DNA of 64,000 bases from Prauserella marina (lineage in GTDB: Bacteria; Actinomycetota; Actinomycetes; Mycobacteriales; Pseudonocardiaceae), in assembly GCF_002240355.1 (NCBI RefSeq), contig NZ_CP016353.1:4452501-4516500 (forward strand). Direction: 5' to 3'. The notes under the pieces were generated by a model. It saw only the letters and a list, made by a program, of their open reading frames with translations, ran no database searches and had not been told where the DNA came from. Shown one piece after another: positions 1 through 26,989 of this stretch. The translations under genes were made by a program, and so were the position numbers. Numbering within the stretch: the first letter of the stretch is position 1; each line of letters begins with the position of its first letter.

Positions 1-3000
1 GTCGCGCGCTTCCGGCACCGACAGCGACAACTCGGGCGGAACGGGAAGCCCCATGCTCCGGAAGAGATCGACGGCGTCGGCGGCGGGCATCTCCTCGATC
101 GCCCCGTCCGGTACGTCGACGGTGACCTGAACCGGATCGAACGTTCCGGTGCTGAACATGTTGCGCAGATTCATGTCCGCTTGGAAGGCGTAGCGGACGT
201 CGGTCACCACGAACGCCGTCGGCCCGGTGTACTCACTGGTTTGTTTACCGCCTGGGGTCAGGTCGTTCGTTTCCGTCGTCCCCTTTTTCCAGCCACCGCC
301 GACGATGCCGCGCAGCGCGGCGCCGACCCTGCCCTCGCGCTGGGGCATGGCGTTGGCGCTCACCCCGAGGTCGACGCCGAACCCGTTGCTCTTCGTCGAG
401 CCGATCACGCTGTCACCGGCCTGGTTGCGCCGCAGGGTGCCCTCGGGCCGCACGGAAACCACCCTCGGCGAATAGAACGTGGCCGAGCCCTTCAGTTCGC
501 CGTTGAAATCGGTCAGCCTTCCCGGCTGGGACATCGTTCCCGTCGTGTGCTGCTGCCCGCTGAACCCCTGCGTCGCGGTGCCCCTGCTGCCGACCTGCCC
601 GATGAATTCGCTCACCGCGTCGCCCGGTGTGCTGCCCGGGGCGGTCAGCGCGGATTCCTTGTACCGGTAGGTCGTGGTGCCGTCCTGCCTGGCTTCGACG
701 AACTCGCGTTGTCCCGGCGAGGACCAGTTGCCGCTGTAGGCAGGCGGGGTGCGGGTGACCTGGCCTGGCCCTTCCTCCGGTGTGATGCGTTTGGCGAGGG
801 CGATCTTGACGGCCTCGGTGGTGTCCGGGGTGATCCGCAGGTGCTCCAGCGTGCCGAACTCGCTTGCCCTGCCGGGGCTCACCTTGCTGTCCGGCGCCAG
901 TTCGGGCGGCGTGCCGAGATAGATGCCCGAGCGCATCCCGCTCGGTGGAACGGGTTTGGTCGACCATGCCAGCTTGTCGGCCGGCGCCGACACGGTGATC
1001 GCGCCCTCGACCCTGCCGGTGTGGACGTGGCGGGAAGCCGTCCCCTCGGTGAAGGCGCTGTCGATCTCGGCCTTGCCGGGGTGCGTGATCCGGTCGGCGG
1101 CGTCACCGCCGAACAGCATCCGGCCACCGAGGAAGAACCGGCGTGCCCAGCCCGGTGTCCTCCTCGAACTCTGCACCACGACGAAGTCGAGCGCGCCCTC
1201 GTAGTCCCTGATGTCGCCGTCGTACTTGCCCGCCCTGCCGTCCTTCCCGGTGTAGCCGGACTTGTTGGAGGTGCCGAATTCCCAGCCGAACGTGAGCCCC
1301 GCCCTCGGCGCGCCGGAGGAGATGGTGGGGCCGCCCTGGTAAGGCTGTGGATTGCCCGCTTCCGGTGTCGTTTTCGGAGCGTCCGGATCCGGGGTGTCCT
1401 TGCCCGTTGGCTGGAAAGCACCGCCGATGCCGCCCTGGAAGGTGCGTTTCCCGTCGTAGGTGCGGCGGAACTGCTCGGCGTTGCCGTCCTCCGTGCCCAT
1501 GCCCGTCTTGCCGGAAGGCGATGTCGTCTCCGGTGCGACCGGCTTCGCGTAGACGACGGCGGTGTGGATACGGCCGTCGCGGTGCCAGCTGAGCTGATCG
1601 CCACCGTGCAGGGCGTTGTAGATCGCCTCCCGCGCACCGGATTCCGAGCCGAACCTGTTCGTGACGGCCTCGTGGCCCCCTGGGTCCGGTTCCCTGCTCG
1701 TGCTCTCGGTCTTCACGAGCTTGTTCGAGAGGAAATCGATGATCGCGCCGGACTTGACCTCGCTGATGCTGTCCCTTCCGAAGCGGTATGGCTGACCGTG
1801 ATCGGTGTTGGCCTTGGCGCCGTCGAGATGGAGCGGTACCGGAAGGCCGAGCGAGCGGGCGAGGGACACCGGCACCCGCACACTGCTGGACACGTTGCCC
1901 GTTACCGCATCGTCCCCTTCCCCGATCCGCATTTCCCGGTCCACCGTGTACACCAGCTCGGTGTCGTTGCCCGTGCGGCTCGTCGACTTCTCGTTCGCCG
2001 GGTTGGTCCCGTCGGTGACCCCGGTGGTGAAGTCGGTGAACAGACCGGCGAACCAGCCCTTGAGTCCGCCGTAGAGCCCCGCGCCGAAGATCGCGTCGCT
2101 GCCTCGTGTAACCGATGAACTGTTGCCGTGGCTCGTGCTCGTGGTGTGGTCGACGGCGGTGGTGCCGACGTAGGTGATCGAGGGATTGCCTTCCGGCGTG
2201 ATGGTGACCTCGTCGCCGTTGAAGGAAACCGTGGCAGGCGGCGGATTCTCGGCCGGGGCGAGCAGCTGGGCGGTGAGTTGTTTCGAGGCTTCGCCCGACG
2301 TCCCGAGCTTGTCGACGAACGCGATCGGCACCGGCACCGGCGCGGGCGTGAGCTCGCCGCCGAACACGCTGTTCGGCACGGGACCGGCGGGGGTGGTGCC
2401 CGGAGTGATGTCGGGCAGCCGCAGACCGGCGTCGACCGCGGCCACCTTGGGCACCGCGCCCGGCACCGTCGCGGTGATGGAGATGGTCGTCGGGACGTGA
2501 CTGCTCTGCTCGGTGCTGCTGCTCGTACTCGAACCGGTGGTCGAGTCGAACTTCTGCGACCGCTTCAGCTGTGCGCCCGCGTAGACCATCGGCCGCATCG
2601 CGCCACCGACGGCGTCGAACGGCGAGACGAACATCAGCGGGATGCGCACCGGAACGCTCGACGTCGTCGACTCGTTCAACGGCGTCGAGAATTCCTCGGC
2701 CGTCTCTTTCTTGACCGAGGACGGTTGCCCGTGCCTCGGCGCGGTCGTGGTGTCGCTCGGCCGGTGCAGATCGGCCTGCACGGCGATCTCGGTCGTGCCG
2801 CCGTCCGGCCCGGTGATGCCGAGCCTTCCCTCGTTGAGGGCGTCGGCAAGACCTTCGGTTCCCAGTTCGCCCAGCCGCGTGGAGACGGCGTCGCGGTCAT
2901 GCCCCGTCAACTCGGCGATGGCCTCGGCCAGCGCGTCCAGCGAGCCGAGCGTTTCGATGGTGATCCGCGAGTGCGGGGGAAGGCCGGAAAGCACGGTGAG

Positions 3001-6000
3001 GCCGCGCTCGACCTTGCCCTGTTTGGCCGCATCCTCCGCGCTGTCCTTGGCCCGCTTTCCTTCTTGTTCGGCGGTGTTCGCCGCGTCCCCGTGCGTGTTC
3101 GACCGGGACTCGACGGCACCGATGTCGGTCAGTGTCCGGCCGAGGCCGCCGATGCTGCCGTCGAGCGCGCGCCGCGCGGTGTCGTGCCGGTCGCGTGGCC
3201 CGGTGTCGGCGGTGAGTTCGTCCGCCCTCGTCTGCGCCAGCCGCCGGTCCGTCTCGGCCTGGTCACGTTCACCGGACACCCGGTCGCGGTCCTCGCGCAG
3301 GGTCTGCCGTTCCGTCTGAAGGTCCTGCCGCTCGGTCTCCGTCCGCTGATCCGGTCGCGCGTCATCGCGTGGTGGCAGGGCGTTCAGCCGTTCATCGATC
3401 GCCCCAAGGCGCCGGTCGATGCCGCCGAGTTCTTCGGTGCGCAGATCGCGCCGGCTCGCGAACTCGGTGGCTTCCCCTGTGGCGCGGTCGATCCGCGCGT
3501 TGTGGGCATCGAGCTCGGCCAGGGTGGTGTTCACGTCGACGGTGGCGGTTCTGACCTCCGTCAGCGAGGTCGCCGCGTCGCCAGCGAGTCCGTTCGCGAC
3601 CGGCCGGTTGACCGCCGCCGCTTCGAGTTCCCTCGCGGCGGTCTCGACGGCGCCGCGCGCGTCGGCGAGTGCCCTGGTGGCATTGTCGTTCGCCGTCACG
3701 GCGGCGTCGGTGGACGCCTTGATCACGGCGGCGTCGGCCCGGACCTGGTCCAGCGCCTGCCCCGCGGTACGGGCGGCGGCCTCGGCAGCCGCCTGCTGAT
3801 CGCCGAGGACGTTCAGTTGCTGCTGCGCGGTCTTGAGCTGCCGCAGCACGTCGGCCCTGTGCCGGACCTCGGCGTCCAGCCGGTCCTGGTTTCCCGTCGC
3901 CGAGGCGAGATCGGCTCGCGCGTCCTCCGCCGCCTCCTGAGCACGGATGATCCGCACGGCGAGGTCGGGGTTGTTCCTCGCGAACTCCTCGCGGGCCCTC
4001 GATCGCAGGTCCTCCTGCGCGGCGAGTTCGTCGAACCGGGTCTGAGCCTGCCGCACCCGCTGGTCGGCGCGGTCCTGCGCTTCCTGGGTACCGATCACCG
4101 CGCCTTCGGCGTCCCTCACCGACCGTTCCACCGAATGCAGGTGCTGCTGGGCGGCCTGGTGGGAGTTCCACGCCTTTCCGTACGCGGCCTCGACGTTGTC
4201 CCTGGCTCGGTTCACGTCGGCGACGGTGCGCTCCGCGTCGCGAACGGGATTGGTTTCCCTTTCGCGCGACGGCGTCTCGATGGGCGCGCCGACGGCATCG
4301 GTGTGGAAGCCGCCGACGTTCTGGTGCCGCGCACCGAGGTCGGGAAGCAGGATCGTGCCGTGTTCGAAGCCGAGCCGCACCGAATCCGCGATCGCACCGT
4401 AGGGGCCGTCGATGTGGAACCGGTAGGCGAGCACGTCGGTGATCCGGTTGATCAGCCCTGGATCGGAGAAGACGGTGTCGTGATTGTTGGCCACGTTGTT
4501 CTCGGCCCATTCCCTTGCCGCGGCTCGACTGTCGGCGTCGACGTCGTCGAGCAGACGCCTCGCCGCTTCGGCCTTGTTCTCCCACGACGGCACCAAAGTG
4601 TCCACTGTGGAGTTCGGATTGGCAAGATTGTCCGTGAATCCAGCGCGCTCGTCCGGGGTGAGGCTGCTGAACCAGTCCTGGAAGTCCCTTCGCCCACCGG
4701 GATCGAGCCACATGTTGAGAAAATCGAAGTTGCCCTGAGCGACCGGCGGCAGCGAATCGTGCCACTGCCGGAACTCCTCTCGTCCGGTCGCCTCGTTGCT
4801 GTAGTTGCGCAGGATGTCCTGGTACTCCAGCATCATGTTGCCCGCGTCGGCAAGCGATTCGGGGAAGTTCACCGCGAGCCACGGCGGGAAGATCGCGTGG
4901 TCCTCGGTGACCATCACCTTGGTCTCGCCATCACCGAGCGGGCCCTCGTAGGCATCGGGATGCGGTCGTGCCTGGCTCAGGTCCTGCTCGTTGAACCCGT
5001 CTTCGGCTCCGGCGAGCGTCAGCCAGTCCCGCAGCGGCAGCACGCCGTGGTTCATCGCGGGGTCGAGCACGACCCACTCGGGACCGTTGCCGTTCTGCGG
5101 ATCGACGCTGATGAGCGGCGCTACGTGATAGCTCCAGTTGATCGGCTGTGGCATGGTGCTCGTGGCGCCGAGCGCGAAGTTCGACTGCGTCCACAGGCCG
5201 GGAAAGCCGCGCCCGACGAACACCTTCCGGACGTCGGCTCCCCAGTCCTTGAGCATCTCGGACCAGAGATGGGCGCGGATGTAGCACCCGTCCTCGGGAT
5301 GCTGGCTGGGGATCGGCAACCGGCCGTCGACCGGATGGTTGAACGTCGAGTTCGCCAGCCGCTGGTAGTAGTCCTGCGCCATCGGCAGGCTCGTACCCGG
5401 CAACGGATCGATGTCCACCTGGTTCAGGTCGATGAATTCGCGGAAGGTCGTTTCGAGCGCCGGATCCCGGTCACTCACCGGCTTGACGATGGCGTTCACT
5501 CTGCCGACGTCGGGCAGAACGGCGTCGGAGAACCGCTCGTTCGTCTGCTGTTGCACGTCGAGCAGCCGCACGTCACCGAGATGGTTCACGACCAGCCACG
5601 AGTGCCCCGGCCCGCGCGCGCCCGGCGGGGGAAACGCGACGACGACAGCGGCCGAACCGTGCCCTCCCTTCGTGACCCGGTCGGCGACCTCGGTGAAGGA
5701 ATCCCTGCCGAGGCCGGTCTGCTCCCATGGGCTGTCGAGCCGTTCGGCCGCCCACGTCGTGGCGCCCCTCGGCGGGCCGCCCGGCAGGCTGCCCGCGACC
5801 TCCGGCCTGCCATCCCAGGTCAGGAACCCGGCGACGCTGCAAGCGAGGCAGTCGGCGAAATTCTGGTCGGGCCGCTCGCCACGCACCAGACCGACCCAGC
5901 GTGCCGGGTCGACGTACGACTGCCCCGGCGCCACGGCCTCCCGCAACGCCGCGGTGTCCTTGGCAGACCCGGGATTCAACGTCGCGGGGCGCTCCCGCAC

Positions 6001-8550
6001 GCCAGGCGGTTCGAAGAACGTCGACGGCCCGTCCCCGGACTCGAACGTGTCCCTCGACCGCTTTCCCGATCCCGGGTTCGGGTTCGGGTTCGGGTTCGGG
6101 TTTGCCGCGGGCGTGGACGCGGGCGGCGCGGGGGTCGACGACTGTCCCTGCTGGAACGGAGCGCCCACCGAATCGGTGTGGAAGCGGGGTTCTCCGGCGA
6201 CAGCTGCCGTGACTTCCTTCGAATCCCGGGACGGCGCCGACGTGTCCGGCATGGCCGGTACCTCGGTGGTGGAGGTTGTGCGCGGCTTGCTCTGCTTCGT
6301 GTTCTCCGCGACCGGTTTGCCTTCCGTGGTGCTCGGCGGCTTGGTCGAGGGCGCCGGGCTGGTCGCCGGGCTCGCTGGGTTGGTCGCCGGGCTCGCTGAG
6401 TTGGTCGCCGGGCTTGCGGCCGGGTTGTGCTGTGTTTGCGTCGCCGGTGGCGCGACGGGAGGCGCGGTCCGATGGTCCTGCCCGCCGGTGACCTGCTCGT
6501 TCCTGGACGGCGGCGCCTGCTGGGTCTCGGCCTGCGACGGCGCGATCTGCGAGGGCGGCTGGGATTCCGGCACTGACGGCGACGGAGTGGTATTCGGCCC
6601 CTGCTGAGCGGGCGGGGCAACGGGGTTGTGGTTCTGGCCATTGTCCTGCGGTGCCGGGCGCACGGTGTCGTCACGGCCCTGCGGTACCGCATTCGGGTTC
6701 GGGTTGTCCTGGTTGCTGTGGTTGCTGTGGTTGCTGTGGTTGTCCTGGTTTCCTGTCGGCGGTGCCTGCTGCTCGCCGGGCGGGTTCTGGCGCGCCTCAG
6801 GGGCCGGCTGGCCGGTTTCAGTGGTGACGGGGGTGTCGTGGCTGCCGCCGGGATGGGCGAGCGGCGATTGGTGCTGACCGTTGTCGCTCGCGCCGGGTAC
6901 CGGGCCGTGACCTTCCGGAACCGATGGTGGCGGAGCTTGCCGCTCGTTCGCATCAGGGATGACGACGCCGTCCTGCCCCGTCGGCGAGGTGACCCCGGGG
7001 CCTCCCTGCCCCGCCGCAGGGACCTGTTCGCCGACGGGAGGAGTGACCACCTGCTCCGGATTGTTCTGTGAGACGACCGGAGGCACGGTCGAGGGCGTTG
7101 TCTGATTGTTCCCGGCCTGATTGTTCGCTGCCGGGTTGTTCCTGGTCTCGTTGTTCCCGGTCTCGTTGTTCGCTGCCGGGTTGTCGAAGGCGCCGCCCGG
7201 CTCCCCGCCGCGCGAGGGGTTCGGACCGGGCCGGAAGTCGTTGGTTTCGCCGACGGATTCGGCGGAGCCGTTACTCCCCGGGCCGTTGCCAAAAGCATTG
7301 TCGCCCGGGCCGTTGTTACCGGAAGCGTTGTTGCCCGGCCCGTTGTTGCCTGAGTTCCCGGAAGGACTGTTTCCTGGCCCGTTACCGTCTGAACCGCGAT
7401 CCCCGGACCCGTTGTTGCCGGAGCCGCCGTTTCGAGAGCCGTTGTCACCGGAAGCGTTGTTCCCAGAGCCGTTCCCAGCTCCGTTGCCAGTCCCATTGCC
7501 AGAGCCGTTGCCAGCTCCATTCCCAGTCCCGTTCCCTGGACCGTTGCCACCGGAACCGGGCTGGTCCGGAGAACCCGAACCGCCCGACCCTCCGGAACCA
7601 CCGGAGCCGCCAGCGCCGCCAGCGCCGCCGCCGAGGTACTTCTCCAGCAGGCCACCCAGCGCGCCACCGCCGACCCCGGCCAGTCCCGAGAACGCACCCG
7701 CTGTCGCCGCGTAGGGGTTCAGCTCGAACTCACCTTCGGTGGCGTACTTGTAGAGCGCTTCGGTGAATACCTCGTGGAACGACTCAGTGCCGATTTCGGT
7801 GATGTTGTTCAGCGCGCCCTTGGCCCAGTCGTCGCCGAAGCGTTTGGCGAAGGCCGTGTTGAGCATCTTGTTGAGGCCGCTGCCGACGATCGCGCCGAGA
7901 CCACCGGCGAGCGGGGCCAGCGCGGCACCCATCGCGCCGACGGCCGCCGCGTTCTTGGTGTGGTCGGTGTTCCATTCGTCCCTCGTGCCCATCCCGTACT
8001 GGGTGACCTGGGCCGCGACGTCGACGAGCAACTGGAAGGCGATGCTGTAGACGGCGAGCTTGACGATCTCGGTGATGACCTTGCGCAGCACCGTGTTGAC
8101 GAAGAACCGCACGATGGGGATGCGGGCGGCCAGCCAGGACATCGAAGCGCCACCGGTGAACGGTGCGAGTTTGATCGCGAGCGCGATCTCGACAAGCAGG
8201 GCGATCAGCGAGTTGATGATGACGAGCTTCATGTACTCGACGTCGAGCGCGAGGTCGACCAGATAGTCGCCGAGTCCATGGAACAGTTCCGCGGCCGCGT
8301 CGATGATCCGGTCGCCCTCGATGAACGGGCTCACCCGCTCGATGAAGGCGCGCGCCGCCTCACCCTCGAAGTTCGACCTGATGCCGTCGACGGCCCCGCG
8401 CAGACCCACCGCCAGGTTGGCGAGGTCCTGCGCGGAGCCCTGCCACTCCTCCGCGAGCGCGCGAAGCTTGTCCTCGTTGGCGTCCGGCCACTCCTCGCCG
8501 GTGAGCACCTGGAACAGCTTCGCCACTTCGGGGCTGACCATCATCGCCAT
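1..8550 (-). CDS. giant CpnT-like ESX-associated polymorphic toxin with two deamidase domains (3' end outside window)
   Basis: The frame is open for 2850 codons and leaves the window without a stop. Residues 1 to about 310 resemble the WXG100-like N-terminal domain of CpnT, with hydrophobic helices near 150-260. Residues 310-830 are Gly/Asn/Pro/Gln-rich linker. A papain-fold Tox-PL deamidase follows, with C901-x-x-C904, H983 in a GHSWLVVN context and D998. A protein-glutaminase-like domain comes next, with C1089 (DGCYIRAH), H1142 (WSYHV) and D1163 (VVLDP). A motif FHTD-x-VGAP occurs at 790 and again at 1415, bracketing both enzymes. Residues 1425-1890 are charged and predicted coiled coil, and beyond 1950 the sequence is Ser/Thr/Gly-rich and probably beta-structured. 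The start ATG lies 9 bp after the stop of the preceding WXG100-like gene. Secretion by the adjacent ESX system and deamidation of target glutamines are inferred from these families; the target is unknown. Confidence 0.85.
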   Translation of the reverse strand, partial: MAMMVSPEVAKLFQVLTGEEWPDANEDKLRALAEEWQGSAQDLANLAVGLRGAVDGIRSNFEGEAARAFIERVSPFIEGDRIIDAAAELFHGLGDYLVDLALDVEYMKLVIINSLIALLVEIALAIKLAPFTGGASMSWLAARIPIVRFFVNTVLRKVITEIVKLAVYSIAFQLLVDVAAQVTQYGMGTRDEWNTDHTKNAAAVGAMGAALAPLAGGLGAIVGSGLNKMLNTAFAKRFGDDWAKGALNNITEIGTESFHEVFTEALYKYATEGEFELNPYAATAGAFSGLAGVGGGALGGLLEKYLGGGAGGAGGSGGSGGSGGSGSPDQPGSGGNGPGNGTGNGAGNGSGNGTGNGAGNGSGNNASGDNGSRNGGSGNNGSGDRGSDGNGPGNSPSGNSGNNGPGNNASGNNGPGDNAFGNGPGSNGSAESVGETNDFRPGPNPSRGGEPGGAFDNPAANNETGNNETRNNPAANNQAGNNQTTPSTVPPVVSQNNPEQVVTPPVGEQVPAAGQGGPGVTSPTGQDGVVIPDANERQAPPPSVPEGHGPVPGASDNGQHQSPLAHPGGSHDTPVTTETGQPAPEARQNPPGEQQAPPTGNQDNHSNHSNHSNQDNPNPNAVPQGRDDTVRPAPQDNGQNHNPVAPPAQQGPNTTPSPSVPESQPPSQIAPSQAETQQAPPSRNEQVTGGQDHRTAPPVAPPATQTQHNPAASPATNSASPATNPASPATSPAPSTKPPSTTEGKPVAENTKQSKPRTTSTTEVPAMPDTSAPSRDSKEVTAAVAGEPRFHTDSVGAPFQQGQSSTPAPPASTPAANPNPNPNPNPGSGKRSRDTFESGDGPSTFFEPPGVRERPATLNPGSAKDTAALREAVAPGQSYVDPARWVGLVRGERPDQNFADCLACSVAGFLTWDGRPEVAGSLPGGPPRGATTWAAERLDSPWEQTGLGRDSFTEVADRVTKGGHGSAAVVVAFPPPGARGPGHSWLVVNHLGDVRLLDVQQQTNERFSDAVLPDVGRVNAIVKPVSDRDPALETTFREFIDLNQVDIDPLPGTSLPMAQDYYQRLANSTFNHPVDGRLPIPSQHPEDGCYIRAHLWSEMLKDWGADVRKVFVGRGFPGLWTQSNFALGATSTMPQPINWSYHVAPLISVDPQNGNGPEWVVLDPAMNHGVLPLRDWLTLAGAEDGFNEQDLSQARPHPDAYEGPLGDGETKVMVTEDHAIFPPWLAVNFPESLADAGNMMLEYQDILRNYSNEATGREEFRQWHDSLPPVAQGNFDFLNMWLDPGGRRDFQDWFSSLTPDERAGFTDNLANPNSTVDTLVPSWENKAEAARRLLDDVDADSRAAAREWAENNVANNHDTVFSDPGLINRITDVLAYRFHIDGPYGAIADSVRLGFEHGTILLPDLGARHQNVGGFHTDAVGAPIETPSRERETNPVRDAERTVADVNRARDNVEAAYGKAWNSHQAAQQHLHSVERSVRDAEGAVIGTQEAQDRADQRVRQAQTRFDELAAQEDLRSRAREEFARNNPDLAVRIIRAQEAAEDARADLASATGNQDRLDAEVRHRADVLRQLKTAQQQLNVLGDQQAAAEAAARTAGQALDQVRADAAVIKASTDAAVTANDNATRALADARGAVETAARELEAAAVNRPVANGLAGDAATSLTEVRTATVDVNTTLAELDAHNARIDRATGEATEFASRRDLRTEELGGIDRRLGAIDERLNALPPRDDARPDQRTETERQDLQTERQTLREDRDRVSGERDQAETDRRLAQTRADELTADTGPRDRHDTARRALDGSIGGLGRTLTDIGAVESRSNTHGDAANTAEQEGKRAKDSAEDAAKQGKVERGLTVLSGLPPHSRITIETLGSLDALAEAIAELTGHDRDAVSTRLGELGTEGLADALNEGRLGITGPDGGTTEIAVQADLHRPSDTTTAPRHGQPSSVKKETAEEFSTPLNESTTSSVPVRIPLMFVSPFDAVGGAMRPMVYAGAQLKRSQKFDSTTGSSTSSSTEQSSHVPTTISITATVPGAVPKVAAVDAGLRLPDITPGTTPAGPVPNSVFGGELTPAPVPVPIAFVDKLGTSGEASKQLTAQLLAPAENPPPATVSFNGDEVTITPEGNPSITYVGTTAVDHTTSTSHGNSSSVTRGSDAIFGAGLYGGLKGWFAGLFTDFTTGVTDGTNPANEKSTSRTGNDTELVYTVDREMRIGEGDDAVTGNVSSSVRVPVSLARSLGLPVPLHLDGAKANTDHGQPYRFGRDSISEVKSGAIIDFLSNKLVKTESTSREPDPGGHEAVTNRFGSESGAREAIYNALHGGDQLSWHRDGRIHTAVVYAKPVAPETTSPSGKTGMGTEDGNAEQFRRTYDGKRTFQGGIGGAFQPTGKDTPDPDAPKTTPEAGNPQPYQGGPTISSGAPRAGLTFGWEFGTSNKSGYTGKDGRAGKYDGDIRDYEGALDFVVVQSSRRTPGWARRFFLGGRMLFGGDAADRITHPGKAEIDSAFTEGTASRHVHTGRVEGAITVSAPADKLAWSTKPVPPSGMRSGIYLGTPPELAPDSKVSPGRASEFGTLEHLRITPDTTEAVKIALAKRITPEEGPGQVTRTPPAYSGNWSSPGQREFVEARQDGTTTYRYKESALTAPGSTPGDAVSEFIGQVGSRGTATQGFSGQQHTTGTMSQPGRLTDFNGELKGSATFYSPRVVSVRPEGTLRRNQAGDSVIGSTKSNGFGVDLGVSANAMPQREGRVGAALRGIVGGGWKKGTTETNDLTPGGKQTSEYTGPTAFVVTDVRYAFQADMNLRNMFSTGTFDPVQVTVDVPDGAIEEMPAADAVDLFRSMGLPVPPELSLSVPEARD

Positions 8551-8559
8551 GTGGATCGC

Positions 8560-8871
8560 CTATTCGTGCGGGGTCGCGCCGTCGGCGTCGTCGTTGGCCC
8601 TTTCGAAGTTCTTGGCGACGAGCAACGTGCTCTCCGAAAGGCCACCGACCCCCTTTTCGAGCAGAGTGAGGAATTCGAGCGCCTTCCACTCCCCCGGCTT
8701 GTAGTTCTGGTCGAACTGCTCGCCCATCTCGCCGGTGCCGCCCGCGTCGCCGTAGCGCTCGGTCGCCGTCCGGACCCGCCGGGTGACGTTCCTTGCCAGG
8801 TCCGACCACTGGTCGAGGTTCAGCCCACCCTGGTTCAGGATGTTGACATCGACATACAGCCGGTCGCTCAT
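8560..8871 (-). CDS. small WXG100-like protein, partner of the giant toxin
   Basis: The product is 103 aa, helical and acidic, with the size and position of an ESX/WXG100-type partner, but it has no clear W-x-G turn. I chose the ATG at 8871 because it shares an ATGA overlap with the stop of the upstream gene, which implies translational coupling; a GTG three codons earlier is possible. The gene ends 9 bp before the giant CpnT-like gene, so the two are surely cotranscribed. By analogy with EsxE/EsxF-CpnT operons it may form the heterodimer needed for export, or act as chaperone or immunity protein. That role is inferred from position only. Confidence 0.75.
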   Translation of the reverse strand: MSDRLYVDVNILNQGGLNLDQWSDLARNVTRRVRTATERYGDAGGTGEMGEQFDQNYKPGEWKALEFLTLLEKGVGGLSESTLLVAKNFERANDDADGATPHE

Positions 8872-9263
8872 CGCCGCCACGTCCCCTCGTCCTTGAGCGC
8901 GTCGTCGAACATGGCCTCCAGGTCAGGTCCCGACTCGCGCAGCCGATCGAGGTCGAGGCCATCCGGAAGGAAACCCGCCATCGCCGCGCCGGTCGCGGCG
9001 GCCGCTTGATCCTGGGCTTCGGTGACCACCTCGACGATCTTCGCGCCGAGTTCCTTCGGAGCCATGTCCCGCCACCGTTTTCCGGTCAGCGCCAGCTCCG
9101 TGAGCTTGCCCTGACTGTCCACAGTGGCCTGTATCGCGCGGTCCTTCGACGTCGCGGTCGCCGTGACCTCACGGAGCTTGTCGAAGGCACCCGCCAGCTC
9201 CTCCTGTTTGGCGCGCATCTCGCGCATCGCCTCGTCGATCTGGTCGTGCAAGGGAGAAAACAT
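8868..9263 (-). CDS. YbaB/EbfC-like protein of ESX effector operon
   Basis: The product is 131 aa. Its N-terminal helix (MRAKQEELAGAF) and the following beta section with the pattern AIQATVDSQGKLTELAL match the YbaB/EbfC nucleoid-associated fold. Members of this family often sit in actinobacterial ESX effector operons, where they are thought to act as small adaptors or chaperones rather than global DNA-binding proteins. The start ATG is preceded by an AGGAG ribosome-binding site about 6 bp upstream. The gene overlaps the next gene by ATGA. DNA binding has not been shown and is not evident from sequence alone. Confidence 0.75.
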   Translation of the reverse strand: MFSPLHDQIDEAMREMRAKQEELAGAFDKLREVTATATSKDRAIQATVDSQGKLTELALTGKRWRDMAPKELGAKIVEVVTEAQDQAAAATGAAMAGFLPDGLDLDRLRESGPDLEAMFDDALKDEGTWRR

Positions 9264-9467: not shown

Positions 9468-11957
9468 CTAACCGTTCGCCGTCTGCTCGGCCTGCCGCGC
9501 CTGTTCCTTCTCTGGTTGCGGGTCGAGGGACTTCCCGCGCTGCACGCCCGCGCCGACGTGCACGTGGGTCGGGGCAAGTGGTTCGTCGGTCTCGTTGGCG
9601 GTATCGCCCGGCAATCCGACGATGCCGTTGCCTGCCATGGCCTCGGTGCCCCAGATCTTGTCGTCCTCCGAAAGCCAGGTCTGCCGTTCGCGTTCCTTGC
9701 TGTCGCCCTGGTTTCCACCCGTCGGCGGCATCATCGGGGGCATCATCGGCATGCCGCGGCCGTTCTGCTCACCAGGATTGAACGCGGTGTTGTTCCCGCC
9801 CCCGCCGCCCTGGTCCTGTCCGGACCAGTCGGACCAGCCCTCGCCGCCGAAGGTGTTGCCCGCGTTGCCGCTTCCCCCGAAGTCGGCCGAGCCGTTATTG
9901 CCGCCGGGGAAATCCGAGCCGGTCCCGCCGGAGAAGCCGGGCGAGCCGCCCGCGGCATTGGAGGCTCCGCTACCTGGCAGATCCTCGAAATTCGGCGTGT
10001 CCAGCCCACCGGTCGAGTTGGAGTCACCGCTGCCGAACTCGGGAATCTCCGGCAGGTTCCGGTCGTCGACGGGGAAATTGTCCCCTGGAAGGTTCTGGTT
10101 GTTGTCGCCCGGCTGGTTCTGGTTGTTGTCTCCTGGCAGGTTCGAGAACAGATCCCGCAGGTCCTGTTCGTTGTCCTGCTGGCCGGGGAAGTCCGGCCAG
10201 TTGTTGCCGAAACCGTCGCCGTTGAACGCGTTGCCGTCGGATCCGGCAGGCGGCGCCTGGTTGCCGAGCCGGTTGGTGTTGCCGTTCGAGCCGCCGAACC
10301 CGCCGGGTGGCGGAAATCCGCCCGGCGGTATCACCGGGCCGTTGCCGAAGGAGTTGTCGCTCCCGTTCCCGAACGGGTTGTCACTGCCGAACGAGTTGTT
10401 CCCGCCCAGGGAGTTGTCCCCGCCGGTGCCGAACGGGTCGCCGCCGAACGAGTTGTCGCCGCCGGTGCCGAACGGATTGTCACTGCCGAACGGGTTGTCG
10501 TTCCCGCCTCCGCCGAAGGAATTGTCCCCGCCGGTGCCGAAGGGGTTGTCACCGCCGGTGCCGTTGTTGTCCCCGAACGGGTTGTCGTTCCCGCCTCCGC
10601 CGTCGTTGCCGCCTGCTCCGTTGTTGTCGCCGTCGTCGCCACCGCCGAACAGGTCGCGGATGTCGTCCTCGTTCAGACCACCGTTGTCGTCCCCGCCACC
10701 GCCGTTGTCGTCACCGTCGTCGCCACCGCCGAACAGGTCACGGATGTCGTCCTCGTCGAATCCGTTGTCGTCGCCGAAGGGGTTGTCACCGCCGAGTCCG
10801 TTGTTACCCCCGCCTCCTGGTGGTGGCAGCGTGGTCGGTGCGACGATGTCCTCAAGCGGCTTCTTGGAACGCTGGTAGGCGGTGTCGAGCTCGGTCATGA
10901 GCTCAGCGGCTCTGGTGTCGAGGGGCTTGATCTTCCCGAGCACGAAGTCGGTGATGTTCTTGTTGATCGTGCCCCACGTCGCCGGACTGTCCAGCGGGCC
11001 ACTGATCTCGGGAAACCCGGAGGGAAGCGGTCCTGGCGCGAAGGTGTTCGTTCCGGTGACGTCCGCACCGATCTGGAGTCCCATGAACAGCCTCTCGGTG
11101 AACACCGGCGCGCTGCTCACCGACGACGAGTAGTTCTTGACGGTTTCCTCGATGTAGGCCTCGGCGGGTTCGCGGGTGTGCTTGTTCGACAGGATGTCCA
11201 GCGCGTAGTTCGGGGTGCCGTGCACGAGGCCCATGCCCCGGATGTAGCGCCGGACGTTCTCGATCACCGCGCTCATCGTGTCCTGAAGCACCGATTTGAG
11301 CCCGGCGTGGTACTGATGCCAGGCGTCGTTCATTCCCTTGGCGAAGCGGCTGAGCGCGTCCGCGATGTCGGCAAGCCCTTGCGACGTCGCGCGTTCCTCC
11401 ACGATCTGGGTGCGGACGTCGTCGAGCGTGTTGGCGAACTTCACCAGGTTCTGCCGGATCGCGTAGGCCGCTTTGCCCTTGAAAGCCGAGTCGTCGCTGT
11501 TGAGCTTCTGCGACCAACTCTGAAGGGTCTCATGGTTGCTGTTCAGCCAGTTCACGTAGTGGTCGACGGCGGCCTTGGCGTCCCTCAGCTTGCCGACGTC
11601 CATCAACTCGGCTTTGCCGTCCTTCATCTGGTCGACGACGTCGTTGAGTTCTTGCAGGGCCGTAGTCCATGCCTCCACTTTGGTCTGATCTTTGTAGACG
11701 GAGATGTACCACTTTTCCCAGGCGTGATAGCTGTACGCGTCGCCGCCGGTCTGGCTGTCGCTCTCCTGATCCGATCCCGCGGTGACGGTACCGTCGGACT
11801 TGAACCAGCCCTGTTCCCCTCCGCCGTTCTTCACGGGGACGTGGATGTCGGGCCCCAGCCCGGTGGTGGCGTAAACCGCCTGATCGAACTTGACGTTCGA
11901 GGTGTCCTCACCGACCTCGGGCGGTTTGCTCGGCCCGGTGCCATCGGGTGTCGTCAT
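9468..11957 (-). CDS. large ESX-type protein with helical N-domain and FG-rich repeats
   Basis: The product is 829 aa. Residues 1-370 are mostly helical, with WXG-type helix pairs and Trp-rich turns (AWEKWYISVY, DAWHQYHAG). Residues 380-700 are low-complexity Gly/Asn/Asp sequence containing six NPFG, one DPFG and four NSFG units. The motif DIRDLF occurs twice in a roughly 25-residue tandem repeat near 405 and 430, and a variant DLRDLF appears near 600. The C-terminus carries the conserved motif TWLSEDDKIWGTE. This architecture resembles actinobacterial proteins called AAWKG family, found beside ESX genes. Its role is unknown; a secreted substrate or cell-surface polymer is my inference. The gene starts with ATG after a GGAG site, 24 bp beyond the stop of the neighbouring ESX-type gene. 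Confidence 0.75.
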   Translation of the reverse strand: MTTPDGTGPSKPPEVGEDTSNVKFDQAVYATTGLGPDIHVPVKNGGGEQGWFKSDGTVTAGSDQESDSQTGGDAYSYHAWEKWYISVYKDQTKVEAWTTALQELNDVVDQMKDGKAELMDVGKLRDAKAAVDHYVNWLNSNHETLQSWSQKLNSDDSAFKGKAAYAIRQNLVKFANTLDDVRTQIVEERATSQGLADIADALSRFAKGMNDAWHQYHAGLKSVLQDTMSAVIENVRRYIRGMGLVHGTPNYALDILSNKHTREPAEAYIEETVKNYSSSVSSAPVFTERLFMGLQIGADVTGTNTFAPGPLPSGFPEISGPLDSPATWGTINKNITDFVLGKIKPLDTRAAELMTELDTAYQRSKKPLEDIVAPTTLPPPGGGGNNGLGGDNPFGDDNGFDEDDIRDLFGGGDDGDDNGGGGDDNGGLNEDDIRDLFGGGDDGDNNGAGGNDGGGGNDNPFGDNNGTGGDNPFGTGGDNSFGGGGNDNPFGSDNPFGTGGDNSFGGDPFGTGGDNSLGGNNSFGSDNPFGNGSDNSFGNGPVIPPGGFPPPGGFGGSNGNTNRLGNQAPPAGSDGNAFNGDGFGNNWPDFPGQQDNEQDLRDLFSNLPGDNNQNQPGDNNQNLPGDNFPVDDRNLPEIPEFGSGDSNSTGGLDTPNFEDLPGSGASNAAGGSPGFSGGTGSDFPGGNNGSADFGGSGNAGNTFGGEGWSDWSGQDQGGGGGNNTAFNPGEQNGRGMPMMPPMMPPTGGNQGDSKERERQTWLSEDDKIWGTEAMAGNGIVGLPGDTANETDEPLAPTHVHVGAGVQRGKSLDPQPEKEQARQAEQTANG

Positions 11958-11981: not shown

Positions 11982-13697
11982 TCAGGCGCCGCCGGTGAAC
12001 CCGGGGTACTCGGTCGTGAACTTGGACGCGTCGTACGCGGCGAGGTCGTCCGCGTCCTTGAAAACGACCTTGGCCTGTTCCAGCGCCTGATGAAAGGTCG
12101 ACAGCTGGCTTCGCAGATCCGTGTTCACCGTGTCGAGCGAGGTACCGAAGGCCGTGCCCCTGGCGTTGAGGTCCTGCGCCCGGATCCACTTCTGGTTGCG
12201 TGGCTGTAGGTAGAAATCCTCGTCAAGGTACGTCAGGTCGAGATGAGTGGCGTTGCGCAAGGAACTCTGAATGTTGTCGATCTCGCCGATCAACTGGTTG
12301 TAGGACGCCTCGTCGAACGTGATGTTCGGGTCGGGGCCGACGTTGCCGTCCTTGGGCGTGCCACCGGAACCCGAGCCCGAGCCCGAGCCGGACGAGTCGC
12401 CGTCGCCGTCGCCCTTGCCATCCCCGTCGCCCTTGCCGTCCCCTTTACCGTCGCCATCGCCCTTTCCAGCGCCGTCGCCGTCGCCGTCTCCCTCGCCATC
12501 CCTGTTGCCCGGGTTGCCGTTGCCCGAATTGCCGCCGTCACCATCGCCCCCGGTGTCTTCCGGTTCCGGTTCGGGCTCGGGTTCGGGAGTCGGTTCCGGC
12601 TGTTGCGCGTGAGCGACCGCGGGTGCCCACGACTGCGTCGGCACCGATTGCACCGGCGGCTGCCGCGGCTGGATGAGCGGCGCCTGCACCGCGAACCGCT
12701 GTCCGAGCGGTTCCTCCCCCTCGGAGGCAGGCTGCTGCGGAATGGCCTTGGGCTTCTCCCAGATCTGCGCCGGCTGGAGCGGAACGGGCTCCTGCTGTTG
12801 CCGATCCTCACCCGCGTACTGGTCCGGCGGCAGCCCTCCCATGGGGGCGAACGGCTGCTGCGACCTGACGAACTCGTCCTGCGCGGGCCGCGAACCGCCC
12901 AGTATGCGCGGATCGACGGCCCCGGGGTGCCGCTCACCGCAGCACGCGCACTCCCCGGTGTATTCCTCGGGTTCGGTGACCTCGCCCTCGGTGTCCTCCC
13001 CCGGCGCGGGCTCACCAGGCACCAGCCGCTCCCGGAACTCGGGTTCGGTGACCTCGCCCTCGGTGTCCTCCCCCCGCGCGCGTTCCCACGGCGCGAGCCG
13101 CTCCCGGAACTTGGGCTCGGTGACCACGCCCTCGGTCTCCTGCCCGGGAGCCGGTACGACCTCACCGCGTTCGGTGACGTAGTCGCCGGCCGGTACTCCC
13201 TCGTGCGCGGGGAGGAGACGCTCGGACACCGCGCCGTGGACGCTCCCGCAGCACGGGCAGCAATACTCGCCGGAGCGATTCTCCCCTTCGCTCCAGTGCC
13301 TCGGCTCCAGCGCCGGCAGGCTCTCCCCTTGCTGGCGGGTGCCGATCCTGAGGCCGGGGGCCAGCGGCGGGAACTGACCTTCCGGCAGGTGCGCCACCAC
13401 CGGTTCCAGCGGTTGCACGGCTCTGACGTGCTCCCCCGCGATCATCGGCTCAAGCTGGATGCCCTCTCGCGGAAGCGACAACGGTTCCGACGGCGCGCCG
13501 AGCTCCGTCGGCGCCACCCCCTCGTTCGCGGGTACGACGCGCGCCCGCTCGCCGAAATGCGCAGGCTCACCCGGCTCACCCGGCGGCATCCGCATCCCCA
13601 TGGGCGGAATCGTGGACCCCGGATTCGTGACACCATGCGACTCACCGAGCTGTCGCCTTGTCGGCAAGACCCGGTCCGGATCCGTCTCCTCCACCAC
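11982..13697 (-). CDS. Pro/acidic-rich protein with C-terminal ESX-type helical domain
   Basis: The product is 571 aa. The first 400 residues are Pro/Glu-rich and include two Cys clusters (C146, C147, C149, C150; and C250, C252, C253) that flank 24-residue repeats beginning TEGEVTEPEFRERL (188-249). Runs of PEPEPEPE and GDGDGKGD lead into a helical domain of about 110 residues at the C-terminus, whose spacing fits an ESX/WXG-type hairpin. The start is GTG; two GTGs at 13697 and 13694 follow an AAGGAG site, and the second has better spacing. The position between two WXG100 genes and the large FG protein indicates an ESX substrate or accessory factor. I do not recognise a specific family. Confidence 0.7.
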   Translation of the reverse strand: MVEETDPDRVLPTRRQLGESHGVTNPGSTIPPMGMRMPPGEPGEPAHFGERARVVPANEGVAPTELGAPSEPLSLPREGIQLEPMIAGEHVRAVQPLEPVVAHLPEGQFPPLAPGLRIGTRQQGESLPALEPRHWSEGENRSGEYCCPCCGSVHGAVSERLLPAHEGVPAGDYVTERGEVVPAPGQETEGVVTEPKFRERLAPWERARGEDTEGEVTEPEFRERLVPGEPAPGEDTEGEVTEPEEYTGECACCGERHPGAVDPRILGGSRPAQDEFVRSQQPFAPMGGLPPDQYAGEDRQQQEPVPLQPAQIWEKPKAIPQQPASEGEEPLGQRFAVQAPLIQPRQPPVQSVPTQSWAPAVAHAQQPEPTPEPEPEPEPEDTGGDGDGGNSGNGNPGNRDGEGDGDGDGAGKGDGDGKGDGKGDGDGKGDGDGDSSGSGSGSGSGGTPKDGNVGPDPNITFDEASYNQLIGEIDNIQSSLRNATHLDLTYLDEDFYLQPRNQKWIRAQDLNARGTAFGTSLDTVNTDLRSQLSTFHQALEQAKVVFKDADDLAAYDASKFTTEYPGFTGGA

Positions 13698-13765: not shown

Positions 13766-14056
13766 TCAGCCGAGGAAGACCCGGCCACCCTGGAGGTCGC
13801 CGTCCTTGAAGATCTCGTGGATGTTGACCGACGACACCGCCTTGGCATTGATGTCCTGGGTCATCCGCTGGTACGCGGCGTTCCACTGGTTCTGGCTCTC
13901 CAGCCAGATCGGCTGGGCCGAACCCCAGGTGGCCTCCGGGATGTTGCGCAGGCGGTCGTTGAGCCGTTCCAGTACTTCGCCGAGCTGGTGGACGGCACGA
14001 TAGAGCTGTTCGTTGAGGTCGAGGTATCCGTCGTGGTTGACGTCGAACATGACCAT
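13766..14056 (-). CDS. WXG100-family ESX protein with N-terminal EF-hand loop
   Basis: The product is 96 aa, the usual length for ESAT-6/CFP-10-like proteins. Two helices flank a central turn, IPEATWGSAQPIW. The unusual part is residues 5-16 (DVNHDGYLDLNE), which match every ligand position of a canonical EF-hand calcium loop: D1, N3, D5, G6, hydrophobic 8, D9 and E12. The helix after the loop is the first ESX helix. The gene sits 36 bp upstream, in transcription order after, the second WXG100 gene. Export through EccC/EccB/EccD as a heterodimer with that neighbour is expected from the family. Calcium binding is inferred from motif only. Confidence 0.85.
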   Translation of the reverse strand: MVMFDVNHDGYLDLNEQLYRAVHQLGEVLERLNDRLRNIPEATWGSAQPIWLESQNQWNAAYQRMTQDINAKAVSSVNIHEIFKDGDLQGGRVFLG

Positions 14057-14092
14057 GTGCGGGTCCCCTTTCAGGAGTGATCGAATCGGAGG

Positions 14093-14380
14093 TCAGTTGG
14101 CCATACCGCTGGTGTCGGCCTCGGTGCTGCGGTTGAGCTGCAACAGGCCCTGTGCCTTGGTGTTGAGTTCGCCGAGCTGGGTGAGAATCGTGTTGTAGTC
14201 ACCACTCCACTCGCCGAGCAGCCCGGCCAGTTTCTGCCCGGAGGTGGAGTTGTTGACCGCTGGCAACTGCGCCGCCAGCCCCTGCACCATCGAGTTGAGC
14301 TGCTGCATCTCGCCGAGCGCCGTGTCGGTGGCGCCGATGACCTGCGTCAGCAATCCGTCGTCGTAACCGGACCTGCTCAT
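14093..14380 (-). CDS. WXG100-family ESX protein
   Basis: The product is 95 aa with a textbook W58-S59-G60 motif between two predicted helices, and has no signal peptide. It lies immediately after eccB in the operon and before the EF-hand WXG100 gene, the classic esxB/esxA-like pair position. It should be a secreted substrate, folding as a four-helix bundle with its partner. A GGAGGAAAAAGG-like purine stretch upstream of the ATG at 14380 serves as ribosome-binding site. Which of the two is the EsxA and which the EsxB equivalent cannot be decided here. Confidence 0.9.
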   Translation of the reverse strand: MSRSGYDDGLLTQVIGATDTALGEMQQLNSMVQGLAAQLPAVNNSTSGQKLAGLLGEWSGDYNTILTQLGELNTKAQGLLQLNRSTEADTSGMAN

Positions 14381-14407: not shown

Positions 14408-15784
14408 TCAGTTGGGTTGGGCTTGGTTGGGTTGGACGATGGACGGTTCTGGGATGTCGAGCACCGGGCCGGTCGGGAGCAGAGCCAGCAGCTCGGCGGG
14501 GACCAGCGCGGCACTGTCGACGGAGAACCCGAGCGCCTCGGCGGCTTCCGCGTCGGCGACGGGGAACTTCGCACCTGCTTCGGTGATCAGGTAGACACCC
14601 GCGCCCGGTACGCCGGGGGCGGGACGGGTGCGGGCGATCATGCCCGCGCCGGGAGTCACGTCGACCAGGTCGGCCACTCGCCCGTCGCGGGTGACTCCGG
14701 CCGGGTCGCTGCTCGCCGAGGAGCCGTCGAGATTTTCCGTGGTCGCGAGAATCGCCTTGTCGTTTTCCCAGCGGACGCACGGCATCCGGGTCTCGGAGTC
14801 GAGTGCCGACGGCGGCCTCCCAGGCAGTTCCGCCTGCCACACCGGGGCCGGTGTGACCTGCTGGGTCGCCAGCTCAGCCGGGGTGAGGGTCATGGTCGGT
14901 GGCAGCGACAGTTCCGGATCGGCGCCGATGAGCGTGGCGACGAGCGGCGACACCGGCATCAGCCCGCCATGCGTGACGACGAACGTCGTGTCGCCGACCG
15001 CATCCGGCGCGGTGACCAGCTGGCCGAGTTCGGTCGGTGCTCCGGCGACCTCGGGACCGGAGCCGCCGTGCTCCACCGGCGGCGCACCGATGTCAGGACC
15101 GGAAGGCAGGGTGTTGAGCCACGCCGAGTCCACCGCGACGGCCTTGGCCGGGTCCATGCCGAGCGCCCTCGGGACCCAGTCCTCGGTGACGCGCAGCTTG
15201 TGGCCATTCCAGGCGAGGTAGAGCTGATCCCCCGTGCGCACGAGCGCCGCTTCGCCTTCGTCGAGCGGCCTCACACCCACCGGCGTTCCGACGCTCACGG
15301 CGACGGCCGACTCGCCATCGCCGACTCCCGCGCACACCGTCCACGGCTGACCGCCAGCGCCTGGCGAGGGCAACGCGTCCGGCGCGCCCGCGATCCCGAC
15401 CGGCGCGCCCTTCGGGAAGTCGGCGAGATCCTTGGCGTTGACCGTCGCGATGGGCGGGTTGCCCTCGACGAGCAGCCTCGCCGAGGCGTAGTTGAGTACC
15501 GGCCGCAGCCTGCCTTCGACGAGCAGGTACCGGTTTCCGGAGTCCTCGTCGACGACGAGGGTGCCCGGCTCGTCCCGCCAGGCGTCGCCGCCCTTGCCGG
15601 TGAGGAAGGAGACGGCGAGCACGATGCCTCCCACGAGCACGGCGACCGCGAGGCCGACCGCGAGGCCGACGGTGGTGCGCCGCAACGGGCGAACGGGCGC
15701 GTCCGGATCGGTTCGCAGCACCGCCGCGAGAATCCGGCCGACCAGAAACGAATGAGCCTCGGCCTGCTCACGCCTGCCGTACAT
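14408..15784 (-). CDS. eccB: type VII secretion protein EccB
   Basis: The product is 458 aa, a normal length for EccB. The N-terminus has the family signature: a short cytoplasmic segment (GRREQAEAHSFLVGRILAAVL), then a single membrane helix at about 37-61, then a large extracytoplasmic domain with repeat-type beta blades. EccB is a core subunit of the ESX membrane complex with its main domain in the cell envelope. The gene is 48 bp downstream of eccD and 27 bp upstream of the WXG100 gene, so it belongs to the same minus-strand operon. No missing or altered region was noticed. Confidence 0.95.
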   Translation of the reverse strand: MYGRREQAEAHSFLVGRILAAVLRTDPDAPVRPLRRTTVGLAVGLAVAVLVGGIVLAVSFLTGKGGDAWRDEPGTLVVDEDSGNRYLLVEGRLRPVLNYASARLLVEGNPPIATVNAKDLADFPKGAPVGIAGAPDALPSPGAGGQPWTVCAGVGDGESAVAVSVGTPVGVRPLDEGEAALVRTGDQLYLAWNGHKLRVTEDWVPRALGMDPAKAVAVDSAWLNTLPSGPDIGAPPVEHGGSGPEVAGAPTELGQLVTAPDAVGDTTFVVTHGGLMPVSPLVATLIGADPELSLPPTMTLTPAELATQQVTPAPVWQAELPGRPPSALDSETRMPCVRWENDKAILATTENLDGSSASSDPAGVTRDGRVADLVDVTPGAGMIARTRPAPGVPGAGVYLITEAGAKFPVADAEAAEALGFSVDSAALVPAELLALLPTGPVLDIPEPSIVQPNQAQPN

Positions 15785-17263: not shown

Positions 17264-17375
17264 GCCCCTTGCACGGCGCCGCCTTCGCCGAGGGTTCAGT
17301 CACCGAGTGAACGCCTCGGCACCGCGCGGCCGTGTACTCATCGGACCGGGCACCAGCAGCGAGGAGCCGACCGCG

Positions 17376-26677: not shown

Positions 26678-26989
26678 TCAGCGTGGCAAGAGCGTCCCCA
26701 GCGGCCCGAGATCGAGGTTGAGGTCGTTCTCGGTCAGCCCGAACCGCTCGGTCAGCTCGGTGAGCCGGTCGTCGAGCAACATGAGGGTCAGCCCGATCCG
26801 TTCCTCCTGCTCCTCCGTCAGATCGCCCTCGTCGACCCTGCGCAGCGCCTGCCTTTCCATCAGCTGGCGCAGCAGCTCGACGATCGTCAGGACCAGCTTC
26901 ATCAGATCCCGCTCCACCGTGTCCTTGTCGGTGTCGATGTGCCCGGACAGGCGCCTGCCGGTGCCCGCGCCGAGGTTGTCGTTCGCCAT
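26678..26989 (-). CDS. gvpK: gas vesicle protein GvpK
   Basis: The product is 103 aa. The central segment KLVLTIVELLRQLMERQALRRVDEGDL is a strong GvpK signature, and the length is normal. GvpK is an accessory protein needed for gas-vesicle assembly and not a shell component. It is the last gene of the ten-gene gvp operon, 21 bp after gvpS. The C-terminus ends with a hydrophobic GPLGTLLPR tail, as in other members. Confidence 0.93.
   Translation of the reverse strand: MANDNLGAGTGRRLSGHIDTDKDTVERDLMKLVLTIVELLRQLMERQALRRVDEGDLTEEQEERIGLTLMLLDDRLTELTERFGLTENDLNLDLGPLGTLLPR

Follow-up and report, generated by a model that had tools for sequence, protein, structure and literature searches.

Can two different deamidase domains lie back to back in one chain that a type VII (ESX) secretion system would export, and what would such a pair do? 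The question arises from a window of 64,000 nucleotides of the Prauserella marina genome (NZ_CP016353.1, positions 4,452,501 to 4,516,500), which is the whole stretch of DNA analysed here. From its letters, a first-pass annotation had proposed a papain-fold domain (PL) followed directly by a protein glutaminase-type domain (PG) in a giant ESX-linked protein. To our knowledge, actinobacterial ESX systems outside mycobacteria have few characterised substrates.

The giant chain, its two enzyme domains and its ESX locus

The giant gene lies on the minus strand, as do all its features given below in window positions. It starts with an ATG at 8550, runs off the window at base 1 and stops at genome position 4445646 (window position 1 is C1:4452501), encoding a chain of 5,134 residues. 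The N-terminal module is a WXG100_2 domain (8140..8526, residues 9-137; Pfam PF25547, E 3.6e-19), which bears out the WXG100 head proposed earlier. A variable linker rich in Gly, Asn, Pro and Ser follows (6184..7680, residues 291-789, from the translation); over residues 291-790 it is 55% identical to the orthologue from Prauserella cavernicola (G001), with a dN/dS of 0.38. The front half of the chain then holds a cassette bracketed by two boundary motifs, FHTDSVGAP on the left (6157..6183, residues 790-798) and FHTDAVGAP on the right (4282..4308, residues 1415-1423). Between them lie a basic leader, KRSRDTFES (6037..6063, residues 830-838), the PL domain, whose match begins 71 residues further on (Gln_amidase/Tox-PL1; 5545..5850, residues 901-1002), the PG domain (Gln_deamidase_2/protein glutaminase; 5017..5379, residues 1058-1178), and a tail that moves together with PG (4351..4959, residues 1198-1400). 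Tail and PG align jointly in G071, G036, G392, G817 and G968. A stretch of residues 1436-1820 (3091..4245), perhaps a coiled coil to judge from a weak SMC match (E 0.03), joins the cassette to a conserved platform of ~1,700 residues (residues 1825-3535), which starts within 1..3078 and continues beyond the window. There the remainder of the platform is followed by two further PL copies and the stop codon. PL2 has C3615, H3686 and D3702 with a Lys at the usual Gln position, and PL3 (residues 4904-4988) has no Cys. A Pfam scan of the chain at E≤1 returned no families besides PF25547, PF15644 and PF18626. Residues 3720-4500 gave no Pfam match above cut-off, and PDB searches with residues 3720-4500 and 4480-4890 gave zero matches at E≤1. 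By eye, residues ~4600-4720 resemble an HD phosphohydrolase (HDMD motif), but neither the PDB sequence search (E≤1) nor the chain-wide Pfam scan matched them.

Both enzyme domains pass their Pfam cut-offs, and the tandem of two deamidase-family domains in an ESX-linked giant chain is real. PG matches PF18626 with E 6.3e-19 and 68.6 bits (cut-off 25), and PL matches PF15644 with E 7.5e-12 and 46.8 bits (cut-off 24.1). The seven catalytic-type residues cited in the first-pass annotation (C901, C904, H983, D998, C1089, H1142 and D1163) are correct letters, and its description of the pair as members of two distinct papain-related amidase families, each with a complete catalytic set, stands, apart from the membership of C904 in the PL set. 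In a census of 29 aligned PL copies, the C904 column holds Cys in just 5, and this residue was dropped as a catalytic candidate. The C901 column is Cys in 24/29, the H983 column His in 28/29 and the D998 column Asp in 28/29 (one Glu); two of the five copies missing C901 are PL2 copies whose extracted stretch started downstream of their Cys. Since C904 is seldom Cys and C901 mostly is, the PL set consists of C901, H983 and D998 plus Q1000. The residue preceding C901 is Asp, not the Asn of the NC-H-DxQ signature. For PG, the catalytic columns across 20 copies are Cys in 20, His in 20 and Asp in 19 (C1089, H1142 and D1163 here).

Six PDB sequences match at E≤10, five of which are protein glutaminases (6e-8 to 1.1e-4) found through PG: 8z3i at 6e-8, and 2ksv, 2zk9, 3a54 and 3a56 at ~1e-4. 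The sixth is an acetyltransferase at E 0.12 that falls in the PL part, so that below E 0.1 only protein glutaminases are matched. The predicted structure of PG recovers the same fold. At E≤0.001 Foldseek gave six hits, every one a protein glutaminase (TM-scores of 0.33-0.49 by target), and the blocks of the model have pLDDT 63-87, save model residues 231-250, directly before the Cys, at 36-43. Against NCBIfam NF040782, the equivalog model of the Chryseobacterium protein-glutamine glutaminase, PG reached 23.6 bits with a cut-off of 250. By its sequence, PG is a family relative of the Chryseobacterium glutaminase and not its equivalog, and it is most likely a protein-glutamine deamidase. PL was predicted poorly, with blocks at pLDDT 28-39 and a mean of 37 in another model. 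In the latter, low-confidence model, the elements that carry the catalytic residues come in an order that fits a papain-like fold (Cys on a helix, then His and Asp each on a strand), and no fold match was found at E≤0.001. A PDB profile search with seven PL copies found neither OspI nor another deamidase; its best match, an E3 ligase at E 0.019, was regarded as chance. Viral contigs screened for additional PL sequences yielded two loci and otherwise nothing.

PL may be a cysteine amidase of either kind, deamidase or peptidase. A published prediction assigns an auto-processing peptidase role to internal Tox-PL1 domains and a toxin role to C-terminal ones (PMC3482391). A second source likewise considers PF15644 either a releasing peptidase or a poison, treats the glutamine deamidase OspI alongside it, and assigns both PF15644 and PF18626 to a single broad cluster of papain-like families (PMC10318531). 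When the PL and PG profiles were compared by hhalign, the probability was 0.2%, i.e. no detectable homology. The two are therefore not duplicates of one domain, and the pair does not stem from a recent duplication.

The genes around the giant gene belong to an ESX locus. Directly upstream lies a gene for a small WXG-size protein (8560..8880, minus strand), with a match next to the giant gene in 14/14 relatives checked, and then one for a YbaB/EbfC-family protein (8868..9263, minus; PF02575), found in 13 of these 14, the exception being G194, where the fetched stretch stops at that point. They are followed on the minus strand by an 829-aa putative substrate with an LXG match below cut-off (9468..11957), a 571-aa protein of no family (11982..13697) and a pair of ~95-aa genes (13766..14380, comprising 13766-14056 and 14093-14380). 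The pair is WXG100-like by size and place only, Pfam finding no WXG match in it. The secretion components proper are EccB (14408..15784, minus; PF05108, E 2.9e-88), EccD (15833..17263, minus; PF19053 and PF08817), an EccC-type FtsK/SpoIIIE ATPase (17181..21338, plus; PF01580, E 3.8e-83) and a subtilase that is mycosin-like by place (21335..22480, plus; PF00082), all at most 15 kb from the giant gene. Given its WXG100_2 head and this locus, the giant chain should be a substrate of the ESX (type VII) system, export being predicted from gene content. Immediately downstream of the giant gene is a gene for a ~880-aa protein of no family, for which no Pfam match passes its cut-off. A 1,001-aa protein also encoded downstream (L007:9108-12110, minus) carries right-handed beta-helix and AAA domains and is EccA-like by place. 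Past the ESX genes, a gas vesicle protein K (GvpK, E 4.9e-34) is encoded at 26681-26989 (minus), beside two-component genes. Imm35 is listed as an immunity family for Tox-PL1 (PMC3482391); a genome-wide search for it at E≤0.01 gave no match.

Inheritance, boundaries and relocation of the cassette

The PL-PG pair is 81% identical in the P. cavernicola orthologue. By the Nei-Gojobori method, dN/dS between the two chains is 0.12 for the head, 0.17 for PL, 0.20 for PG, 0.27 for the platform, 0.31 for PL2, 0.34 for the tail and 0.48 for PL3, with dS of 0.39-0.61 for these segments. Among the 12 segments compared, PL and PG have the lowest values after the head. Judged by these substitution rates, PL and PG are under purifying selection, and the pair is an inherited cassette. 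A third chain with the tandem, G392, comes from another genus and carries the same three Pfam families. The frames are uninterrupted over 5,134 codons in the window chain, 5,736 in G001 and 3,982 in G392. Chance or a frame artefact can be ruled out, as G001 and G392 keep both the open frame and the domains and dN/dS is well below 1.

Comparison of G392 with the window chain shows that the head (66% identity), the platform (46%) and the end (57%) are collinear. The block of PL, PG and tail (36% identity) lies before the platform in the window chain and after it in G392, residues 869-1382 of the former aligning to residues 3109-3617 of the latter. On this alignment, the cassette is relocated as one unit relative to a collinear scaffold. 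The motif HTD[AS]VGAP flanks the block on both sides in both Prauserella chains and on the left side only, as HTDAVGAP, in G392. Searched as a DNA pattern in a set of 120 genomes that excludes G392, the motif turns up four times in two genomes, each time at a flank of a Prauserella cassette, and the reversed pattern is absent. Of the 12 scaffold chains that lack the cassette, none contains the strict peptide. Looser TDxVG strings are present in 10 of all 15 scaffold chains, some of them inside the platform.

The tandem is rare. PF18626 was found in 9/120 relatives, in 15/397 genomes of the order and in 1/396 genomes of the phylum, the last being the P. marina genome itself. PF15644 is commoner, with 36/120 relatives and frequently multiple copies per giant frame. 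Of the 20 PF18626 copies in 18 genomes, three have a PL neighbour at a distance of up to 330 residues, in each case ahead of PG, and 17 do not. These three tandems are those of the window chain, G001 and G392, the first two being close orthologues. A profile of the pair matched 62 of 390 genomes of the family, three of them with a single match spanning both domains; five first-look candidates were scored per genome, and copies may have been missed. On these counts, a general rule linking PL to PG was rejected. In two further genomes, G015 and G817, a single chain carries both domains at non-adjacent sites, and a frame on a Streptomyces plasmid (L132) has PG plus two weak PL-like matches. Separately, the plasmid of Streptomyces sp. 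SAT1 (L130) bears a ~26-kb gene annotated "protein-glutamine glutaminase family protein" with PG, and no PL match was found within the stretch read.

The scaffold family and its working PL copy

In 12 of 18 genomes fetched from the pair-profile matches, a chain has both head and platform in common with the window chain. Together with the window chain, G001 and G392, these 12 chains form a scaffold family of 15, which is not a census: as the chains were chosen via PL or PG matches, a scaffold without PL would go unseen. The other genomes were omitted because the platform was unmatched (G817, G968, G1069 and G1079), the chain was a fragment at a contig end (G853) or the frame had 822 residues (G1071).

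In all 13 non-Prauserella chains, no recognised domain comes after the PL near the end. This PL keeps its Cys, His, Asp and Gln, and a KRSR leader stands 70-71 residues ahead of the match. Between 134 and 220 residues follow the domain, so it is not at the extreme C-terminus. The two Prauserella chains have an end PL with neither Cys nor leader, and the leader-bearing PL with the full catalytic set is the copy in front of PG. The arrangement is reversed in G392, where the cassette PL, adjoining an intact PG, has no Cys, His or leader and the end PL is intact. The 15 chains hold 28 PL copies. A K[KR]x[KR] motif is found in the 110 residues ahead of 23/23 intact copies other than PL2, of 0/3 dead copies and of 0/2 PL2 copies, though the latter keep Cys, His and Asp. 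The main form is KRSRxxFE, with KRPRL, KRPRR and KRRKVE as variants. Overall, the pattern precedes 25 of 73 PL copies examined; among control windows taken from these proteins, 33 of 1053 contain it. PL copies are related by descent, and these counts are not independent. Outside the 15 chains, an intact end-type PL in the G853 fragment has no leader, and the end PL of G1071 is intact and has one. The 822-residue frame of G1071 (L129) places its KRSR leader and end-type PL behind an unrelated-looking front, with no platform.

Further giant chains are built differently. G194 (L116) has a 6,194-residue scaffold chain that contains the platform twice (residues ~1437-3146 and ~3824-5626) and three PL copies, a doubled giant. 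The P. marina genome holds a second giant frame at C1:262001-299557 (L008-L009) and beyond, 19,272 codons from stop to stop, with three weak PL matches; 12,519 codons lie in the fetched stretch, and the frame runs off its low end. Giants of other kinds bear PL arrays in the stretches read: eight copies in G083 (L038-L040), four in G105 (L041), four in G113 (L042), and 22 over three frames in G091 (L043-L044), with a mixture of strong and weak scores. A frame of 18,021 codons in G817 (L122-L124) has two PL and two PG copies, both PL matches scoring identically.

A putative two-enzyme payload and its place among known systems

We lean towards regarding the P. marina chain as an ESX giant of the scaffold family whose front cassette would pair PL and PG as a two-enzyme payload, and give this reading a little more than half of our confidence. 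The scaffold comprises, in order, the WXG100_2 head, a disordered linker, the ~1,700-residue platform and a papain-fold PL near the end; the cassette, set into the front half, comprises HTDxVGAP, the KRSR leader, PL, PG, the ~200-residue tail and the second boundary motif. The ESX machine would export the giant chain and the cassette would be released as a unit. PG would most likely turn glutamine into glutamate in proteins of a target cell, presumably another cell. PL would be the standard cysteine amidase of the scaffold and an effector, whether deamidase or peptidase, rather than a processing enzyme only. That the two form one payload is suggested by the Prauserella chains, in which an intact, leader-bearing PL stands beside PG and the end copy lacks its Cys. 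As the last recognised domain of the 13 other scaffold chains, PL is here regarded primarily as an effector and only secondarily as a processing peptidase. By a published argument from position, a PL with no recognised domain behind it is likelier a toxin than a releasing peptidase (PMC3482391). PL and PG could possibly act on the same target or on two.

Processing is nevertheless a reading to be reckoned with, though we hold it to be rather doubtful. PL would then be a cis-acting peptidase that cuts at HTDxVGAP or KRSR and frees PG and other modules, PG remaining the sole effector. Such a role has been predicted for internal Tox-PL1 domains (PMC3482391). Moreover, the cassette is flanked in both Prauserella chains by short, almost identical motifs whose strict form occurs nowhere else in the 120 genomes, the 12 scaffold chains that have no cassette are devoid of the strict motif, and the leader is missing in 3/3 dead copies, all without Cys, as expected of a cis site. 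However, with only 134-220 residues behind the intact PL in 13/13 other chains, little is left for it to release. G392 retains one HTDAVGAP beside a dead PL, though its other PL is intact, and the PL2 copies are complete in Cys, His and Asp yet have no leader. A second alternative, put forward in the first-pass annotation and doubtful to the same degree, is that both domains are Gln-to-Glu deamidases directed at two target proteins or two sites. The family name of PF15644 and the discussion of OspI next to it (PMC10318531) agree with this, as do the intact and constrained domains of the Prauserella chains, but the seven-copy PL profile led to no deamidase in the PDB and G392 has a dead PL beside a live PG. 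An obligate two-enzyme attack is further opposed by the 17/20 PG copies with no PL nearby.

A third alternative is that PL has by now become chiefly a structural or regulatory companion to PG, perhaps shielding it as a pro-region would, and that its chemistry is dispensable. PL lies directly N-terminal to PG, as the pro-region does in pro-protein-glutaminase (3a54, 3a56), and in G392 a dead PL adjoins an intact PG. Yet both Prauserella chains keep the PL catalytic residues, only the head has a lower dN/dS than PL, and most PG copies do without such a neighbour, which makes this explanation improbable. Decay of one or both domains in a functionless giant gene is very improbable: catalytic residues are indeed lost from PL3 of both Prauserella chains and from the cassette PL of G392, but the dN/dS values of PL and PG and the three unbroken frames speak against a relic.

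The leader invites a more specific proposal. K-K/R-x-K/R is the consensus of one type of nuclear-import signal. KRSRxxFE could be such a signal, in which case a cassette of leader, PL and PG, exported in the chain by the ESX machine and released between the HTDxVGAP motifs, would modify nuclear proteins of a eukaryotic neighbour such as an amoeba or a fungus. We regard this as unlikely. It fits the presence of the leader in 23/23 intact copies other than PL2, its absence from the dead copies, its low frequency in the control windows and the lack of an Imm35 match. It is weakened by the intact end PL of G853 that has no leader and by the relatedness of the copies, and a dibasic processing site would fit these observations too.

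We found no description of the PL-PG tandem, of PG in ESX chains, of the scaffold, of the relocation of the cassette or of the leader in the openly licensed literature. As far as we found, the PL-PG pairing, its relocation and the leader are new here, and the class of giant multi-toxin chains itself is known. The Prauserella giant represents a defined, syntenic family of predicted substrates with two enzyme domains small enough for purification. It also offers a built-in comparison between a live PL beside PG in Prauserella and a dead PL beside a live PG in the other genus. Whether Tox-PL1 in giants of this kind acts as toxin or as releasing peptidase, roles that have both been proposed (PMC3482391), and what the leader does thereby become directly testable.

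Giant actinobacterial polymorphic chains with several toxin domains are known, the longest being SACTE_5178 with 13,652 aa; WXG chains that carry Tox-PL1, and peptidase domains that recur in a form devoid of catalytic residues, have also been reported (PMC3482391). The Prauserella giant resembles the SACTE_5178-type giants in its multiple toxin-type domains and its repeated peptidase domains, part of which lack catalytic residues. Those giants carry metallopeptidase, caspase, ART and MCF1-SHE domains; the PL-protein glutaminase tandem, the relocatable cassette and the KRSR leader set the Prauserella giant apart from the description given of them in that source. With Tox-PL1 (PF15644) toxins, PL shares the profile, the C-H-D-Q set (with DC here, not NC) and the association with WXG and type VII secretion (PMC3482391), but it occupies an internal front slot directly before a second enzyme and bears a leader. 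PG has sequence, predicted fold and the C-H-D set in common with the protein glutaminases of Chryseobacterium (2zk9, 3a54) and Flavobacterium (FBPG, 8z3i). Their chains are 185-312 residues long, whereas PG is a domain that follows PL in an ESX-linked chain of 5,134 residues. CpnT-type ESX toxins have a WXG100-type head and are encoded in an ESX locus. The Prauserella giant is like them in both respects; it differs in having several enzyme domains and, as no further Pfam family was detected in the chain at E≤1, no recognisable NAD-glycohydrolase domain.
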